From a virus, in IMG/VR virus record IMGVR_UViG_3300025849_000117, positions 1 through 33,794 of that record: 33,794 nt of DNA; one strand, given 5' to 3'. The position numbers and the translations under genes are program-made. The notes beneath the pieces are model-generated. The model made no database searches and was not told the DNA's origin. It was given only the letters and a program-made list of their open reading frames with translations. Positions 51 to 30,047 of the stretch are shown here, in pieces; within the stretch, counting starts at the first letter, position 1; each line of letters opens with the position of its first letter.

Positions 51-57
51 GTAAATC

Positions 58-87
58 AAAAAAGGGCTCTCGTAATGAGGGCCCTTT
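58..87 (-). terminator. Intrinsic terminator ending the late operon
   Basis: Positions 61-71 pair with 77-87 in an 11-bp stem with one G-T wobble and a GTAAT loop. Read on the minus strand, the stem is followed at once by six T residues (63 to 58). The plus strand has no T-tract after the stem, so the terminator acts on leftward transcription. It lies about 50 nt after the last small ORF and closes the amidase end of the operon. Confidence 0.88.
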
Positions 88-137
88 CTGGTTACAGGAA
101 CTTTTAGGTATGGTACGCCTATTTATTTTTGTTCCTT

Positions 138-269
138 TTATTTAATTTTTTTGCAATCATTTACTCTTTTAGGCTTGCCTTTAGAGTCCTTTTTGCCTGA
201 AGGTGAATTTTTAGTTTTTCCGTTGGCGGAGTACCCAGGCCAACACTTCATTTTAAATGGTGAACTCAT
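138..269 (-). CDS. Small basic protein, 43 aa
   Basis: Translating 269 to 138 on the minus strand gives a 43-aa lysine-rich protein that begins MSSPFKMKCWPGYS and ends in CKKIK. The ATG overlaps the TGA of the preceding 26-aa ORF (ATGA), which supports coupled translation. The leader is A-rich without Shine-Dalgarno, as usual in Bacteroidota. I do not recognise a functional family. The N-terminal SPFKMK resembles the start of several other small proteins in this window. It has no membrane segment and is likely cytoplasmic or virion-associated. It is the last gene before the terminator. Confidence 0.6.
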   Translation of the reverse strand: MSSPFKMKCWPGYSANGKTKNSPSGKKDSKGKPKRVNDCKKIK

Positions 270-346
270 TTTTTTTCTTTTTTAAACATTAATTTATACA
301 TTAAAGAGTTCCATTCGCTTTTCAAAAACTTTATTATTTTTTTCAT
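266..346 (-). CDS. Tiny cationic peptide, 26 aa
   Basis: A 26-codon ORF lies between the amidase and the 43-aa gene. Its ATG shares the A of the amidase TAA stop (TAATG), and its TGA overlaps the next ATG (ATGA). It is therefore coupled on both sides, the best argument that it is translated. The product starts MKKIIKFLKSEWNSLMYKL and ends MFKKEKK. It is strongly cationic, with hydrophobic residues spaced as in an amphipathic helix. A role in lysis or membrane binding would fit its place beside the amidase, but that is inference. No family is recognised, and a non-coding spacer cannot be excluded. Confidence 0.45.
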   Translation of the reverse strand: MKKIIKFLKSEWNSLMYKLMFKKEKK

Positions 347-792
347 TATTTCCACATGTTAGTTATGTTATCGTATTCTTCTGTTGCGTTAAAACTAGGA
401 CAAGCTTTATTAGCAAAATCATTATGACCGTGTATCGTAGCGTGGGCATGTTGTATCTTCAAATACTCTAGTATATATACTAAAGCTTCTTTCTGCTCTT
501 CAGTTCTAGTATCTTTAGGTTTAAAATTAACCTTATCAATCCCACCAACGTAAGCTATTCCAATAGATCCTTTGTTATGACCCTTGCAATGAGCTCCTTG
601 CTTTTCAACAGGTCTTCCCGCGTGCAGAGAGCCATCTAGATAGATTAAAAAATGATATCCAATATCAGACCAACCTCGATCTAAATGCCATCGTCTAACG
701 TCCTCTACTGTAGTATGTCTACCCTCAGGTGTTGCGGTACAGTGAACAATAATCTTATTTATTTCTCTCAATTCTTCTTCTTTCTCGTTCAA
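346..792 (-). CDS. T7-lysozyme-like N-acetylmuramoyl-L-alanine amidase
   Basis: This is a zinc amidase of the Amidase_2/PGRP family, which cuts the bond between MurNAc and L-alanine in peptidoglycan and serves as phage endolysin. The 148 residues are close to the length of T7 lysozyme. The key residues match it almost position for position: H17 (in IIVHCTAT), Y46 (GYHF), H123 (IHGHNDF), K129 and C131 (NKACPSF). H17, H123 and C131 would be the zinc ligands, Y46 and K129 the catalytic helpers. There is no signal peptide, so access to the wall would need a holin; two candidates lie about 30 kb upstream. The start overlaps the end of the giant gene by 38 bp. Whether it also inhibits an RNA polymerase, as T7 lysozyme does, cannot be seen. 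Confidence 0.93.
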   Translation of the reverse strand: MNEKEEELREINKIIVHCTATPEGRHTTVEDVRRWHLDRGWSDIGYHFLIYLDGSLHAGRPVEKQGAHCKGHNKGSIGIAYVGGIDKVNFKPKDTRTEEQKEALVYILEYLKIQHAHATIHGHNDFANKACPSFNATEEYDNITNMWK

Positions 793-11403: not shown

Positions 11404-12681
11404 TTAATATGATGATTCCTTATAATTACTAGACACTGAAAACAATTCGTTAGTTCCTGAATCAGGGTCGTTTGTTGCTGTTAAAACAGCTGTCGCTGTA
11501 AATCCTTTTATACCTGAAATTGATTGCCCAAAAATAACTTCACCGTCCATTGCTGGAGATATGTTTATTAAATTTGCAAAATATTTATTTTCTTTTTTCT
11601 TGAATTTGTTTTGAAACAATAAATTATCCATAGCTGCTAAAGATGTAGCAAAAGAATACGTGCCTATAGAGTGAGCCGAATCACCACTGTTTGTAGTGAT
11701 AGATGTTAAAGCCCAATTACCTTCACCTTCGTAGTTAATTGTTTTAAAACTTTTAACAACAGAAGGTATAGCGTTGAATACAGTTGTTACCGATGAGTCA
11801 TTTGCTGCTCCATAGAAATTACTTCTGTTTACTACAGATGGATCTTGATAGTGCCTCCAAATACCACCTTGGTAAGTTGAAAAGAATTCACTTTGAACAC
11901 TAAAAATACCGCTAGGTGCATAACTATATCTACTAGTCCAACCGTTTATTTGCTCGTCAAAAGATAGTGTTTCAGTAGTATGAGTTGTGGAAGCTAAAGA
12001 TAAAGTGTAACACTTGTTGTGCACGTCCCAACCGCCAATGGCTCTTCCGTTGTTAAGATTGTTTAATCGATCTCTAAAAAAGTCATACATACCATAATTA
12101 GATATTTCTGTTATGCCATCTCTAGAAAGCCTTAAAACAGCTCCCTGGTTAACGTCTGTAAAGTATTTTTGATACCCATATACAGCAAAGCTTTCAGGGT
12201 TTTTACTTATTCCAAATTCACCAGCGTATGGCGTTATAGCTCCTATTACCACGTTAGAAGCAGTCTGAATGGGTTGGCCTTCCTGAGAATATATAGCGTC
12301 TTTATCTATTAAAGCTCTATTAACTTTGTTTTCTTGAAATATAATTAAATTAGTATCTTCCGCATAAAGCTTTTGTATAGTTCCTTTACCAGGGTCGACA
12401 CTTCTTGTTATATCTTGTCCAGAAGGAAATTGATTTGACTCATTAATACCTGTTCTAGAATTTAAAACACCAGAATAAGTAATAGAATTACCTAAAACTT
12501 GCTGTCTAGTATTGTCTGATCTTATAAAAGCTCTAGGTGCTAAACCTGTTTGAACATTGTTATAACCTCCTTTTATTCTAGCCTCTTCAACATACCAGTT
12601 ATATGAAGAGGATATATCCCCTTCCACTAGCTTTTTAAGAATGTATGTGTTGTAATATTTTACTGGTATTGTAACTGCCAT
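11404..12681 (-). CDS. Muzzle-like tail protein, C-terminal part
   Basis: This 425-aa protein contains the stretch GAVLRLSRDGITEISNYGM, preceded by ITPYAGEFGISKNPESFA and followed by GGWDVHNKCYTLSLA. I associate these with the later portion of the large 'stabilization' or muzzle proteins of crAss-like and related marine phages. There the chain forms a beta-propeller-like body around the tail exit. Here that part is a separate gene, 54 bp after the 1688-aa gene carrying the N-terminal muzzle signature. The protein is beta-rich and polar with no signal peptide. It probably assembles with the 1688-aa protein at the distal end of the short tail. The family link is by recollection and needs a profile search. 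The 54-bp gap upstream is almost pure A/T and has no clear promoter. Confidence 0.7.
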   Translation of the reverse strand: MAVTIPVKYYNTYILKKLVEGDISSSYNWYVEEARIKGGYNNVQTGLAPRAFIRSDNTRQQVLGNSITYSGVLNSRTGINESNQFPSGQDITRSVDPGKGTIQKLYAEDTNLIIFQENKVNRALIDKDAIYSQEGQPIQTASNVVIGAITPYAGEFGISKNPESFAVYGYQKYFTDVNQGAVLRLSRDGITEISNYGMYDFFRDRLNNLNNGRAIGGWDVHNKCYTLSLASTTHTTETLSFDEQINGWTSRYSYAPSGIFSVQSEFFSTYQGGIWRHYQDPSVVNRSNFYGAANDSSVTTVFNAIPSVVKSFKTINYEGEGNWALTSITTNSGDSAHSIGTYSFATSLAAMDNLLFQNKFKKKENKYFANLINISPAMDGEVIFGQSISGIKGFTATAVLTATNDPDSGTNELFSVSSNYKESSY

Positions 12682-12735: not shown

Positions 12736-15700
12736 CTATATAGGTTCTGTTGGTCCTATATTTTGAGTACTAAACTTCACGTTAGTAGGGTACGTGTCAA
12801 CGTTACCGTCAGTTTCATTTACGTAAAATCCAACACCTGTCGTTAAAACGTTGTAGTTTCCAGGTTGCTTATTTGGTGAATTTGGATTAGAACAGTTTTG
12901 ATTTTCATGAGACCATCCCATCGTGCCTTGTACACTAGCGGTTGATGGAAGTCTATTTAAAACAGCGCCGAAGTTAACAATAGCACAACCGGTAAAGTCG
13001 TAGTTACCTAAAGTACCGCCAGCTGTATTTTTCATTCCAGGTCTTACACCAGCCGCCATTAAATCGTCTATTGTTGAGCTAGCACCACCAGACGCTTGCG
13101 TGAAAGGTTGAAGAATTGCACTTACTAAAACACCCTGTAACTGACTCACGTCATAACATGGGTCAGTTACACAATAACATGGATTAAAAGGACCTATACC
13201 CTGTGATGTGGTGGTTGAGGTTGAGTTTTGTGGGCCTATATCAGTAACGTATGTATCTCCTAAAGCATCGGTAAATGATTGATTGTAGTCCAAAAAAGTA
13301 GGACCAAACACCTCTGAGCTTGTACCACCTGGATTAGGGAATGTAAAAGGAAATGTAATTATCCGGGTCAATTGACCACCTCCAACACCTGAAACTATAG
13401 CTCCACCGCTATATATGTAAACAGGTTGGTCCGTCCAATTAGTTAACTGGCCTAACACTTGAGTATCAGGTCCGGCTCCAATCAAACGTGTGTATGGAAG
13501 TGATGATTTCCAGTTAGATAACTGGTCGCTAGTGTTCCAATCGCCAGCGCCATTAGTGTTGTTAAGTCTTTGGTAAGGAATCCATTGAACTGTACCTTCG
13601 TAGCTGGTTATAGCGCCTATCGTATAGTTTAGCGTAGACTCTTCGTTAACAGCTCCTAAGGTATCAGTCAATCTCATTTTTACAGAGTAAGAATAACCAT
13701 TTTTGTTTCCTTCACCTGGGTAATTTCCATTAGTATCTGGTGCACCTGACAGAGTAAAAACTTGATAATCTGCAACTGTAGTTTGAAACGTAGGTCTATC
13801 CGTAGATCCAGAGGCTGTTTGATACCAAGCGTTAAAGCCGCTAGTTATAGTTTCTGTGACACCAGTGCTTTGTCTAGTTCTAGACGCTTCATATATAGTC
13901 CACCCAGAGCTGCTTGAGAATGTTGATTGACCAGGTGACGTTACTTTAGCTGACCCGTTTCTACCTTGAGGAGATTGACTAACTATAGTACCATTACCCT
14001 GCGTTGTAACTATAGTAGCGTTTGATTCTGAAGGTAGATCAAAGTTAATTAGAGTCGGGTTTGGGTTTAAAACCGTTGGCACAGAGTTTTCTAATTGAAT
14101 TTCAAAACTTTGAGCGACTACCGTTCCGTCTTCTTGTTCTATATTTAAAACAAACTGATACCTGCCTCTCCAAGTTACATTGTACGCTGGCTCTTGAGAT
14201 GATCCAGCATAAAAAGTGTCATTAGTTAAAACTCTATAACTACCTGGTGAAGCACCACTAGAAACAAGGAATTGACTAGTCACCGGGTTTATTGTATCTA
14301 ACGTTTGCGTAGCTGGGTCGTAATTATATACTTGAAAGCTTTGCAAAGAAGTTGTAAGCAGTGGGTTACCTCCAGCTATAGGAAAAAAATCTGTTGTTAT
14401 AGGAGTATTTAAACTTGCGGATTCTGAAAAGTCAGACTCGAAAGTCGTAAGTCCAGTTATATCAGAGCTAGTATTAACAATACTCAAGTTCAAGTCTGAT
14501 ATTAGATCTGCTGTAGAAGTCTCATAAAACAAGTCTAAATTAGAAACAAAAGGAGATGTTTCATAAACAGCTAATCCCATGTTTTCTGGGTATGGATAGT
14601 TACCATCACCTTCCGCAGGCAGGGTGTATAAAGTTTCTTTTATACCTATAGCGTTTCTAGTAGATATTTTTGCTAGAATTGGGTTCGTGTCGTAGTTGTA
14701 AACACTGAAAGAATTTACATCTCCAGAAAGTGGGTCTAAAGGATCTGCTGGCTGTAATTCTGGAAATGCGTTTAAAGTGTTAGCTATCAAATCAACTTTA
14801 TCAGCAGAAGGCACAGGATCATACTGCACATTATAAGTAGAAAAAATACCGGTTGTAGATTCAACCTCCGTTATGTTTGTTACGCGCCCAAACATGCTGA
14901 CATCACTGGTAAATTGGTTTTGAGTTGGGCCAACATCTTGTAGGCTTCTAGGTACTTTATTTACATTATCTGCTATCAAAGTTACAAAGCCAGTTTCACC
15001 TTTTTCTTTCGTTTCATCAACTATTGGATATCCATTAACTATGCCTGGTAAATATACATTGTAATAATCCTGTTGCTGTTGTTTAACGACAGGTTTATAC
15101 ATATAAAAACCTAAGGGGTTTATAGTGTAAGTAGCGTAAGTATGTTCTTTAGCTTGCTTGCTAGGTTCTGTTGTGACTGGGTTAGGTGTATTATCAAATA
15201 AATAATCAGTGGCAACCTCTTCATCTGTATAAAAAACAACCGCCTTCGCGTCGTTGTTATTATCTAAGATAGCTGTAACGTCGGAAATTTGAGTGTAATC
15301 TATGTAAAGTCCTCTTAGTTTTTGACCTGAAAAGAAATAATTCTGATAAGTTGCAGCAAAGTTAGGGAATAAAGACCTAACCGCATCCCCAGTACTAGCG
15401 CCTGTTGTGTATTTATATTTTTTACTTGATGTATATAAAACTTCTACTTTAATAACTACACCTAACTCAACCCCATCATTGAATGTTATCCTCGTGTAAT
15501 CATCGCTATAAGTATTATAAGGCGACTGCGTGTAACTAGATTCTTCTTGAAGCACCCATCCATTTCCAAAGTTCTTAAAAACATTGAATGTATTGTCTAG
15601 ACCTGTAGCATCTAAAAACAAAACAGAGGTATCAAAAACTGTTTGATCTAAAGTAGAGACAAGACACTGAGTTCCTAAACTTAAAAAGAAAGGATATAAA

Positions 15701-17802
15701 GCGCTAGGTGAGTCTGGAGTTCTTGAATCGACAGTGTAATAATTACCAGTTGCATAAGCTCCAGGATAACCTGATATACCTATGTCTCCCTCTGGTATTT
15801 GCTGTAAATAAAACAAAGCTAAGTTGTCACCTTTCCAATCAGCGACTTTACTTCCAAAATTACCTTTTTTATAATCATTAAAGTAGTTAGATCCAGGTTG
15901 TGGATTTCCATCAGAATCTAATAAACCGTCTTGAGACGACAGAACTACATCCGTATGTCTTCCGTACTTGTCAGCTAACACTAAACCTACTTGATAGTTT
16001 CTATTTTGCTTAGCTGAATGCTGTGGATATTCTATAAATTGTTGTGTTGATTTTTCTTTAGAACCTACGTAGTAACTTAAACTATCTGGAGCACTGTGGC
16101 TAGATAAGTAATTGCCATACATTATTCTATTGCCCGAGGTTTCTTGAGCTAAGGCTCTAACTGGCACTTTGTCAAAAACTCTAATGTTTTGAGCCTCCGG
16201 AAGAGTTGTAACAGGCAGTCTTGATTGGTAAGAGTATTGATATATATTAGTGCCGTTTAAAGATGCTATAAAAGAATCATTAACTCTAATAGTTTCTATA
16301 ACTTTAAAAGCTAAAGAATCTGACTCTGTAAACAATATATCTATTTCAGTTATCTTGTAATTAGTTATAACATCATTGCAGGGAAGTGTTATATTTAAAA
16401 CAGCATTATTTATAGAGTTCTGCATCCAATCAACAACTGTAGTTACAAAAGCGTTGTTTTCGTCATTATTAACAAATCTACCTTCTTGGTGAGGTATAAA
16501 AACGTCTTGGCTAAAAGGAGCAACAGTAGAGTACTCGTTATCTTCAAACTTAAATCTATAACTAAATCTAGCAAACTTTTCAGATAGAAAATCAGGATCA
16601 CCATTCCAACCGTTATACCCAGCGTCTCTAATAACTCTAACAGAATAACCATCTCCAGTGTTTCCGTCTGAGTTTTGTGTTATGACAGCTGTTGGATTCC
16701 ATTGAGCGTAGTTATTGGTAGCTGAGTCACTAGCCCAAAACCTACCAGCTGTTGTTAATGAGTTAAAACCATCCCCACCCGTACCAGCTGTTCTTCTATA
16801 TCCAGCTGGTTTAATGTTAGTACCAACTAAATTATTACCTTCTTGGTAACCAGGAGCTGTAACATCCCATAGATCTATAGACCTCCAGTTTTGACCTGAA
16901 GACGATGGACCAGCAGATATGATATTACTCCATTCAGCAGCTGTAGGTATTCTAAAACCAGTTGGAGCAAGTTGTCTTGGATCTAAAACAGCCCACTTGT
17001 TATATAAAATTCCGTAAGTAACACCATTACCTAGAGAGTTGTCATAGTAGCACCACCTGCCTTCTTGAGCTACATCAGCAGCGTCCCATTCAGTCCTGCT
17101 TTGCGCTTCAATTATTTCTTCTCCATTTCTATATCTTTTTACAGCTAAATTTTCTGTGCTTAGGTCATATATACCTACCTCAACGATAACAGGGTCTTGA
17201 GCGTCAGACATGGTAGAAGGTTCTAGGCTATCTGTGTAGTTAGCAAAGTCTTGTGGATTAGCCCTAAGATTTGTAAATTCAGGAGCCTTGTAGGGAGAAA
17301 ATTTAGCTACAGATATTTGGTCTTCATTGAAATAATGAGTACCTGGGGCAGCGTCTACTTTTATTTTTCTAGGTTGATTTCTATTGTCAGTAAAAAATAA
17401 CTGGTTTTCAATTAAGCTAATACCATTCATGTATTCTGTTGTGGAAAAGTTTAAAAAACTTCCACTAACAAGTGTTACATTTATATTAGTTATAGTATTG
17501 TAAGCACCGATAGTGCATGTGGCATTAAAGGGTGCTTTAACCTCTGACGTGTGGTTTGTTCTAAAATAGTAAACTATAGAGTTTGTTTCGTCTACGTATG
17601 TTCCTATTATAAAATGGCCACCTCCAGAAAGTAAAGACGTTTGAGAATTGCCTCTAATAGACTCTAAAGCTCCAACGTCACTGTTTTCTGATCTAGAAAC
17701 AGCTATATTTAAAGCGTCTCTGTATTCTGAGTTAGGAATTAGTCTTTCGTCTAAATCCTTATTCATTTTAGATTTTATAAAACTATTTTTAGCTTCTGCC
17801 AT
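12736..17802 (-). CDS. Large muzzle/stabilization-type tail protein with inserted FISUMP domain (1688 aa)
   Basis: The N-terminus (KMNKDLDERLIPNSEYRDA, residues 12-30) is the signature of crAss-like 'stabilization'/muzzle proteins, tail proteins at the DNA exit. Further family-like segments are FARFSYRFKFEDNEYS (about 407-422), and VRALAQETSGNRIMYGNYL with HSAKQNRNYQVGLVLADKYG (about 540-615). Between them, residues 250-393 form a FISUMP (Fibrobacter succinogenes major paralogous) domain: WCYYDNSLG, YGILYNKWAVLDPRQLAPTG, IPTAAEWSNI and YSVRVIRD. It has a C-type-lectin-like pattern and is normally seen in secreted Bacteroidota proteins. From about residue 1000 the chain is Ser/Thr/Gly-rich and beta-like, with possible Ig-like modules. 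It ends with a Cys-containing region (PCYCVTDPCYDV). The lectin-like insert and the beta-rich tail probably face outward and bind the host surface. Confidence 0.82.
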   Translation of the reverse strand: MAEAKNSFIKSKMNKDLDERLIPNSEYRDALNIAVSRSENSDVGALESIRGNSQTSLLSGGGHFIIGTYVDETNSIVYYFRTNHTSEVKAPFNATCTIGAYNTITNINVTLVSGSFLNFSTTEYMNGISLIENQLFFTDNRNQPRKIKVDAAPGTHYFNEDQISVAKFSPYKAPEFTNLRANPQDFANYTDSLEPSTMSDAQDPVIVEVGIYDLSTENLAVKRYRNGEEIIEAQSRTEWDAADVAQEGRWCYYDNSLGNGVTYGILYNKWAVLDPRQLAPTGFRIPTAAEWSNIISAGPSSSGQNWRSIDLWDVTAPGYQEGNNLVGTNIKPAGYRRTAGTGGDGFNSLTTAGRFWASDSATNNYAQWNPTAVITQNSDGNTGDGYSVRVIRDAGYNGWNGDPDFLSEKFARFSYRFKFEDNEYSTVAPFSQDVFIPHQEGRFVNNDENNAFVTTVVDWMQNSINNAVLNITLPCNDVITNYKITEIDILFTESDSLAFKVIETIRVNDSFIASLNGTNIYQYSYQSRLPVTTLPEAQNIRVFDKVPVRALAQETSGNRIMYGNYLSSHSAPDSLSYYVGSKEKSTQQFIEYPQHSAKQNRNYQVGLVLADKYGRHTDVVLSSQDGLLDSDGNPQPGSNYFNDYKKGNFGSKVADWKGDNLALFYLQQIPEGDIGISGYPGAYATGNYYTVDSRTPDSPSALYPFFLSLGTQCLVSTLDQTVFDTSVLFLDATGLDNTFNVFKNFGNGWVLQEESSYTQSPYNTYSDDYTRITFNDGVELGVVIKVEVLYTSSKKYKYTTGASTGDAVRSLFPNFAATYQNYFFSGQKLRGLYIDYTQISDVTAILDNNNDAKAVVFYTDEEVATDYLFDNTPNPVTTEPSKQAKEHTYATYTINPLGFYMYKPVVKQQQQDYYNVYLPGIVNGYPIVDETKEKGETGFVTLIADNVNKVPRSLQDVGPTQNQFTSDVSMFGRVTNITEVESTTGIFSTYNVQYDPVPSADKVDLIANTLNAFPELQPADPLDPLSGDVNSFSVYNYDTNPILAKISTRNAIGIKETLYTLPAEGDGNYPYPENMGLAVYETSPFVSNLDLFYETSTADLISDLNLSIVNTSSDITGLTTFESDFSESASLNTPITTDFFPIAGGNPLLTTSLQSFQVYNYDPATQTLDTINPVTSQFLVSSGASPGSYRVLTNDTFYAGSSQEPAYNVTWRGRYQFVLNIEQEDGTVVAQSFEIQLENSVPTVLNPNPTLINFDLPSESNATIVTTQGNGTIVSQSPQGRNGSAKVTSPGQSTFSSSSGWTIYEASRTRQSTGVTETITSGFNAWYQTASGSTDRPTFQTTVADYQVFTLSGAPDTNGNYPGEGNKNGYSYSVKMRLTDTLGAVNEESTLNYTIGAITSYEGTVQWIPYQRLNNTNGAGDWNTSDQLSNWKSSLPYTRLIGAGPDTQVLGQLTNWTDQPVYIYSGGAIVSGVGGGQLTRIITFPFTFPNPGGTSSEVFGPTFLDYNQSFTDALGDTYVTDIGPQNSTSTTTSQGIGPFNPCYCVTDPCYDVSQLQGVLVSAILQPFTQASGGASSTIDDLMAAGVRPGMKNTAGGTLGNYDFTGCAIVNFGAVLNRLPSTASVQGTMGWSHENQNCSNPNSPNKQPGNYNVLTTGVGFYVNETDGNVDTYPTNVKFSTQNIGPTEPI

Positions 17803-29651: not shown

Positions 29652-30047
29652 TTAATTGTTTGTTATTGATTTTGCTTTTTCCCAAGTACGACCTACAAAG
29701 TAGGCTCCGTATACGGTTACTAGTAACGTTTGAAATATTGGTATATATTCTTTAGCTAGTCCAAACTCACCAATGTTACCATCAAAAAAAGCTAAAGACG
29801 TAAAAATTACAGTCAGATATATTAAGATCATTGGTCTAATGTTTTTACTTAAAAAACTATCAGACTTCATATCTGCTTCCCAACGCTTACTAACCTCTAA
29901 TTGAGCTTTAGTATCTGCGTCTTCTAGTATCTGCTGTATTTGCTTCTTTACTTCTAACCTCTCTTCTTCGGTTGTAGTAAGCTTGTCGATGACGTTACCA
30001 ATCTCTTTGATAACGCCACCTGATAGCCATTGAATTATTTTTTTCAT
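29652..30047 (-). CDS. Holin, GTA/3TM-family type
   Basis: The 131 aa have an amphipathic N-terminal helix (IIQWLSGGVIKEIGNVIDKL) and a charged helix with EVSKRWEADMKSDSFLSKNI. Two membrane segments follow, at about 72-88 (PMILIYLTVIFTSLAFF) and 103-119 (PIFQTLLVTVYGAYFVG), with a final YFVGRTWEK. The WEADM...SKNIRP...YGAYFVGR pattern is that of the holin family found in gene transfer agents and many phages (GTA_holin_3TM, PF11351 as I remember it). It would form inner-membrane holes to release the amidase. It shares its ATG with the stop of the basic 411-aa gene (TAATG). The amidase lies almost 30 kb away at the other end of the operon. Confidence 0.8.
   Translation of the reverse strand: MKKIIQWLSGGVIKEIGNVIDKLTTTEEERLEVKKQIQQILEDADTKAQLEVSKRWEADMKSDSFLSKNIRPMILIYLTVIFTSLAFFDGNIGEFGLAKEYIPIFQTLLVTVYGAYFVGRTWEKAKSITNN

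Follow-up and report, generated by a model that had tools for sequence, protein, structure and literature searches.

The window, that is, the whole 33,794-nucleotide stretch of viral DNA that was analysed (IMG/VR record IMGVR_UViG_3300025849_000117), carries two adjacent muzzle genes on the minus strand. The N-terminal gene (12736..17802) encodes a protein of 1688 aa and was assigned from its ORF, a match to phrog_14478 (PHROG 14478), an alignment to gp097 of Cellulophaga phage phi38:1 and a VIA-align match to chain 7qol_P of the phicrAss001 muzzle. It contains the start of the propeller, IG1 with a FISUMP insert, the remaining muzzle core and a C-terminal extension. The C-terminal gene (11404..12681) encodes 425 aa, matches PF25729 (crAss_MUZ_C, E 3.7e-11) and aligns to residues 859-1321 of phi38:1 gp097 and 965-1357 of crAss001 gp44. 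A first-pass annotation of the sequence had taken the 1688-aa protein to be the muzzle; the family assignment stood, but the protein is not the whole muzzle, as the C-terminal part (PF25729) is the separate downstream gene. The muzzle is one ORF in phi38:1, elemoF, Manatee Spring phage and crAss001, a single polypeptide being a form shared by the known members but no formal requirement. It is split into two neighbouring genes both in the window and in 53/53 relatives whose contigs cover the end of the N-terminal gene, with or without FISUMP. In 2 of these 53 (L007 and L023), one of the pair has apparent frame breaks. It would take two chains to complete the muzzle propeller, provided that both products assemble. 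The cultured relative phi38:1 is listed under Pervagoviridae without an order, and 'crAss-like' is meant here in a loose sense. No Rfam match and no tRNA were found in the window.

The FISUMP (Fib_succ_major) insert occupies residues ~201-395 (16618..17202, minus strand), as supported by PF09603, TIGR02145 and the domain model. Pfam PF09603 was matched by residues 216-392 (E 5.5e-22, 79.4 bits against a cut-off of 33.9), covering profile positions 10-187 of 187, and TIGR02145 by residues 246-393 (43.1 bits against a cut-off of 41.65). Both matches exceed the curated cut-offs and agree with the full FISUMP domain of the first-pass annotation; its bounds, residues 250-393, had missed ~45 residues of the domain on the N-terminal side. 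By alignment with relatives, the insert is bounded by the family motif PSTMSDA just before it and WNGDPDFLSEKF just after it. PF09603 was the sole Pfam family matched in all 22 relatives scanned. When phage and bacterial FISUMPs were compared, 40 columns were at least 80% conserved in both sets, with an identical residue in all 40; the conserved core includes N218, L219, G227, W239, Y263, N268, D274, R276, P280, W312, W356 and R389. Sequence searches of PDB chains with the whole protein and with a FISUMP profile gave no useful match, and full-text literature searches for FISUMP found no paper.

The domain was modelled alone (residues 198-396) with a pLDDT of 94.5. Foldseek of this domain against the PDB gave no match with E < 0.001. 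The VIA-align list comprised 50 rows (Z 6.9 to 3.7), dominated by formylglycine-generating enzyme (FGE), EgtB, PorK, C-type lectins and variable proteins of diversity-generating retroelements (DGRs). Z was 6.9 for FGE, 6.5 for the C-terminal domain of Legionella Lcl, 5.4 for both the DGR variable protein TaqVP and the human lectin BDCA2, and 4.7 for the Bacteroides ovatus fimbrial protein 4eps; all values for the domain are below 8 and individually modest. FGE, PorK, EgtB, the Lcl C-terminal domain, C-type lectins, TaqVP and 4eps share one fold. These modest but consistent matches indicate that FISUMP is a compact module of the C-type-lectin/FGE fold, in line with the lectin-like fold first proposed. 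Two BFVD proteins from uncultured phages have the same fold and the domain name 'Fibrobacter succinogenes major paralogous domain': A0A6J5LVS1 (TM-score 0.80 and 31% identity to the FISUMP domain) and A0A6J5N676. They are 878 and 375 aa long, respectively, in contrast to the 1688 aa of the N-terminal muzzle protein of the window.

Muzzle sequence lies on both sides of the domain, as the first reading had it, according to phrog_14478, the phi38:1 alignment and VIA-align. The alignment of residues 1-633 with phi38:1 gp097 (Pervagoviridae, Callevirus), one of the closest cultured muzzle homologues, has an E value of 4.5e-62 and opens a gap of ~200 residues precisely where FISUMP lies; gp097, a single polypeptide of 1324 aa, has no more than about 23 residues at this site. 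A flank model was made of residues 1-631 (mean pLDDT 67). Its best VIA-align matches were the phicrAss001 muzzle chains 7qol_P (Z 11.4) and 7qok_A (Z 10.9), followed by a row at Z 8.9; the muzzle chains alone also covered IG1, the match spanning 53..529 of the model and 61..278 of 7qol_P. Foldseek of the same 631-aa model returned mostly propellers, none under E 0.001, and the muzzle surfaced in VIA-align only.

The phicrAss001 muzzle (gp44; 7qol/7qok) belongs to the same tail-end family and also has an IG1 that interrupts the propeller, at residues 163-292 between blades 2 and 3 (Bayfield et al., PMC10172136). Because of the model alignment to 7qol_P and these published bounds, the insert is placed in the IG1 loop: in the model, IG1 (residues ~165-529; 16216..17310, minus strand) is split by it between strands 175-177 and 410-419. 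Low-confidence segments (pLDDT < 50) lie upstream (residues 180-201; 17200..17265, minus strand) and downstream (residues 399-408; 16579..16608, minus strand) of FISUMP, and these linkers are possibly flexible. The domain had been put at the exit end of the tail; it sits in the IG1 loop instead, and the extreme exit tip in phicrAss001 is the crass domain (PMC10172136). The phicrAss001 muzzle lacks FISUMP and is one polypeptide, whereas that of the window has FISUMP and two genes. Muzzle length variation was described as insertions in the crass and IG2 regions, with no such IG1 insert described (PMC10172136). These comparisons confirm that a domain with clear bounds has been inserted into a protein of a known family; a receptor-binding role for it is putative but reasonable.

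Relatives were collected by a whole-protein search (78 loci), the score of which favours FISUMP carriers, and the search was therefore repeated with the downstream flank only (residues 400-1000). In this second search FISUMP was present in 53/53 of the closest loci and absent in 26/26 more distant ones, these being counts of contigs and not of independent lineages, with several loci from the same or near-identical phages. The carriers make up a group of crAss-like phages that are uncultured and come from metagenomes. Exactly one FISUMP match per contig was found, in a muzzle-sized frame (16/16 large contigs of the clade). Between the anchors SVAKYAPY and KFVRFSYRFKFEDNEYS, L002-L036 have FISUMP, and the remaining loci have a different insert or a short linker. 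Had the domain been in every relative it would be taken as ancestral to the muzzle; all close relatives have it, but sister lineages lack it or have something else in its place, and phi38:1, with a nearly empty site, lacks it as well.

Several of the other inserts could be described. Inserts of ~200-235 residues that bear KIGDIVT-like motifs lie in the IG1 loop, before and after the STMTN motif, in L041-L049, L051, L057, L059 and L066; a PHROG search of three of them (L041, L042 and L047) gave no match. Among the insert types searched against PHROGs, none matched except the L064 insert and a second small domain nested in the FISUMP of L025. The nested domain lies at about muzzle residues 305-380 and is also present in L026; that of L025 resembles phrog_697, a repeat found in structural and in baseplate proteins, and the L064 IG1-loop insert matched the same PHROGs weakly.

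A host-type origin of the inserted domain, as first suggested, agrees with its nearest non-phage relatives, which are bacterial: small proteins from Chlorobiota and Bacteroidota with the domain as their last part. In a genome scan, bacterial relatives, mainly from Chlorobiaceae, Flavobacteriaceae and Chitinophagaceae, were about 30-41% identical over long stretches. L165, a 57% match from a Flavobacteriaceae MAG, is a phage sequence with a muzzle gene; its placement in the MAG may be a binning effect. In a flank tree, made by a quick method with no root inferred, the 50 dereplicated FISUMP rows formed one side of a single branch (SH-aLRT 100). In a tree of the insert against bacterial domains, a check that the first-pass annotation had proposed, the phage FISUMPs formed one clade (support 100) apart from 60 bacterial ones, which are the top-scoring sequences only. 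Flank and insert distances were correlated (Mantel r 0.87; 0/999 permutations as high). Given both trees and this correlation, the simplest history is probably a single old acquisition of FISUMP followed by vertical descent. Since the insertion appears single, ancient, clade-wide and vertically inherited, the domain gives no impression of having switched specificity recently. From the trees and the distance correlation, we reject recent gain of the domain and cassette swapping among clade members, with L025/L026 as a local exception: between these two, FISUMP is far more diverged than the flanks (dS 0.80 versus 0.19).

FISUMP is under purifying selection (dN/dS ~0.05-0.27 in close pairs, above the flanks in nearly all), yet it evolves faster than the flanks, with a median ratio of distances of 1.66 (~1.7 times). 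Relaxed constraint can be an alternative source of faster evolution in a surface domain. The most variable segment is residues 361-380 (16663..16722, minus strand), within the C-terminal ~40 residues, where mean pairwise identity among 33 clade members is 0.17; this stretch also ranks among the most variable parts of bacterial FISUMPs. That the domain is a passive insertion, tolerated by a permissive loop without any selected function, would fit the varied inserts that the IG1 loop takes, which in the dereplicated set range between about 23 residues (phi38:1) and about 300. We regard this as quite improbable: FISUMP is intact in all 53 of the closest relatives, its dN/dS is well below 1, and the core residues common with bacterial FISUMPs are retained.

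The position of the variable segment also bears on whether FISUMP is the hypermutated target of a DGR. DGRs are known to target Fib_succ_major domains (PMC4159848, PMC8143477), target proteins that carry such a domain have their mutations within the last ~35 residues (PMC8143477), and the peak of variability in FISUMP is at the usual position of the variable region (VR). The domain is internal and not C-terminal, however; RVT_1 (reverse transcriptase) was matched in 0/16 viral contigs of relatives (50-68 kb each), no template-repeat-like copy of FISUMP DNA is present in the window, a 33.8-kb fragment, and the changes in close pairs are mixed, spread over the gene and largely synonymous, with no adenine-directed bursts. 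Hypermutation by a DGR is thus highly improbable, and a DGR in the clade was rejected as far as the contigs reach. The Bacuni DGR targets with DUF1566/Fib_succ_major (PMC8143477) are likewise phage-encoded, have a related lectin-fold domain and were proposed to bind the host; they differ in having the VR at the 3' end, in being diversified by a DGR and in lying outside the muzzle, whereas the FISUMP of the window is internal with no DGR seen. Bacuni isolates that do not share a host range have different VR-bearing proteins of the DUF1566/Fib_succ_major type (PMC8143477).

FISUMP was also found outside the muzzle. A related phage without muzzle FISUMP (L324:622-2652, contig of L306) carries it at the C-terminus of a tail-fibre-like protein of 676 aa; the middle part of this protein matched proteins annotated as minor tail and as tail fibre. 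The protein gives independent support for adhesion. The gene that follows it has YadA head repeats, and a chaperonin gene of Cpn60/GroEL type lies on the same contig (L324:5759-7315).

We consider it fairly probable that FISUMP was acquired by one insertion in the clade ancestor, descended vertically and is a lectin-fold module on linkers with a putative role in binding the host surface. A bacterial-type FISUMP would have been inserted once into the muzzle IG1 loop, as a compact module tied to the muzzle through two linkers. If the muzzle is hexameric as in phicrAss001, six copies would surround the tail end of each virion. FISUMP would bind a host-surface molecule, either a polysaccharide or an outer-membrane protein, and might form a second receptor contact near the muzzle gate. 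The analyses show what the domain is, where it was inserted, its single origin, its retention, its fold, purifying selection and faster evolution centred on one C-terminal loop, and from these we infer outside display, receptor binding and any coupling to gate opening; putative binding of a host molecule is the best reading because of the fold, the low-confidence linkers, the variable loop in a constrained domain and the tail-fibre-like FISUMP protein. The domain might instead be a structural or decoration module, which would stabilise the hexamer of the muzzle or offer a docking site to tail fibres and bind no host molecule. Universal retention in the clade, purifying selection and the single copy on each of the 16 large contigs would suit such a role, which we think rather unlikely nonetheless. 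Low-confidence linkers lie on both sides of the domain, its variability is centred on the loop that serves ligand contact in DGR lectin-fold proteins, and sister phages have unrelated inserts or almost nothing at the site, so that FISUMP is dispensable for muzzle assembly in general.

A broader and more tentative proposal, possible though rather doubtful, is that the muzzle itself, beyond the fibres, is a receptor-binding organ, in which six IG1 modules would grip the host and help to trigger gate opening, and the IG1 loop would be a family-wide installation site. The IG1 loop would be a specific site in crAss-like tails where evolution installs surface modules and the insert-bearing muzzle a proposed gatekeeper of ejection, with FISUMP giving a defined domain for testing the role of the muzzle in host recognition.

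Elsewhere in the window, the protein encoded at 29652-30047 matched PF11351, a holin of gene-transfer agents (E 3.3e-6).
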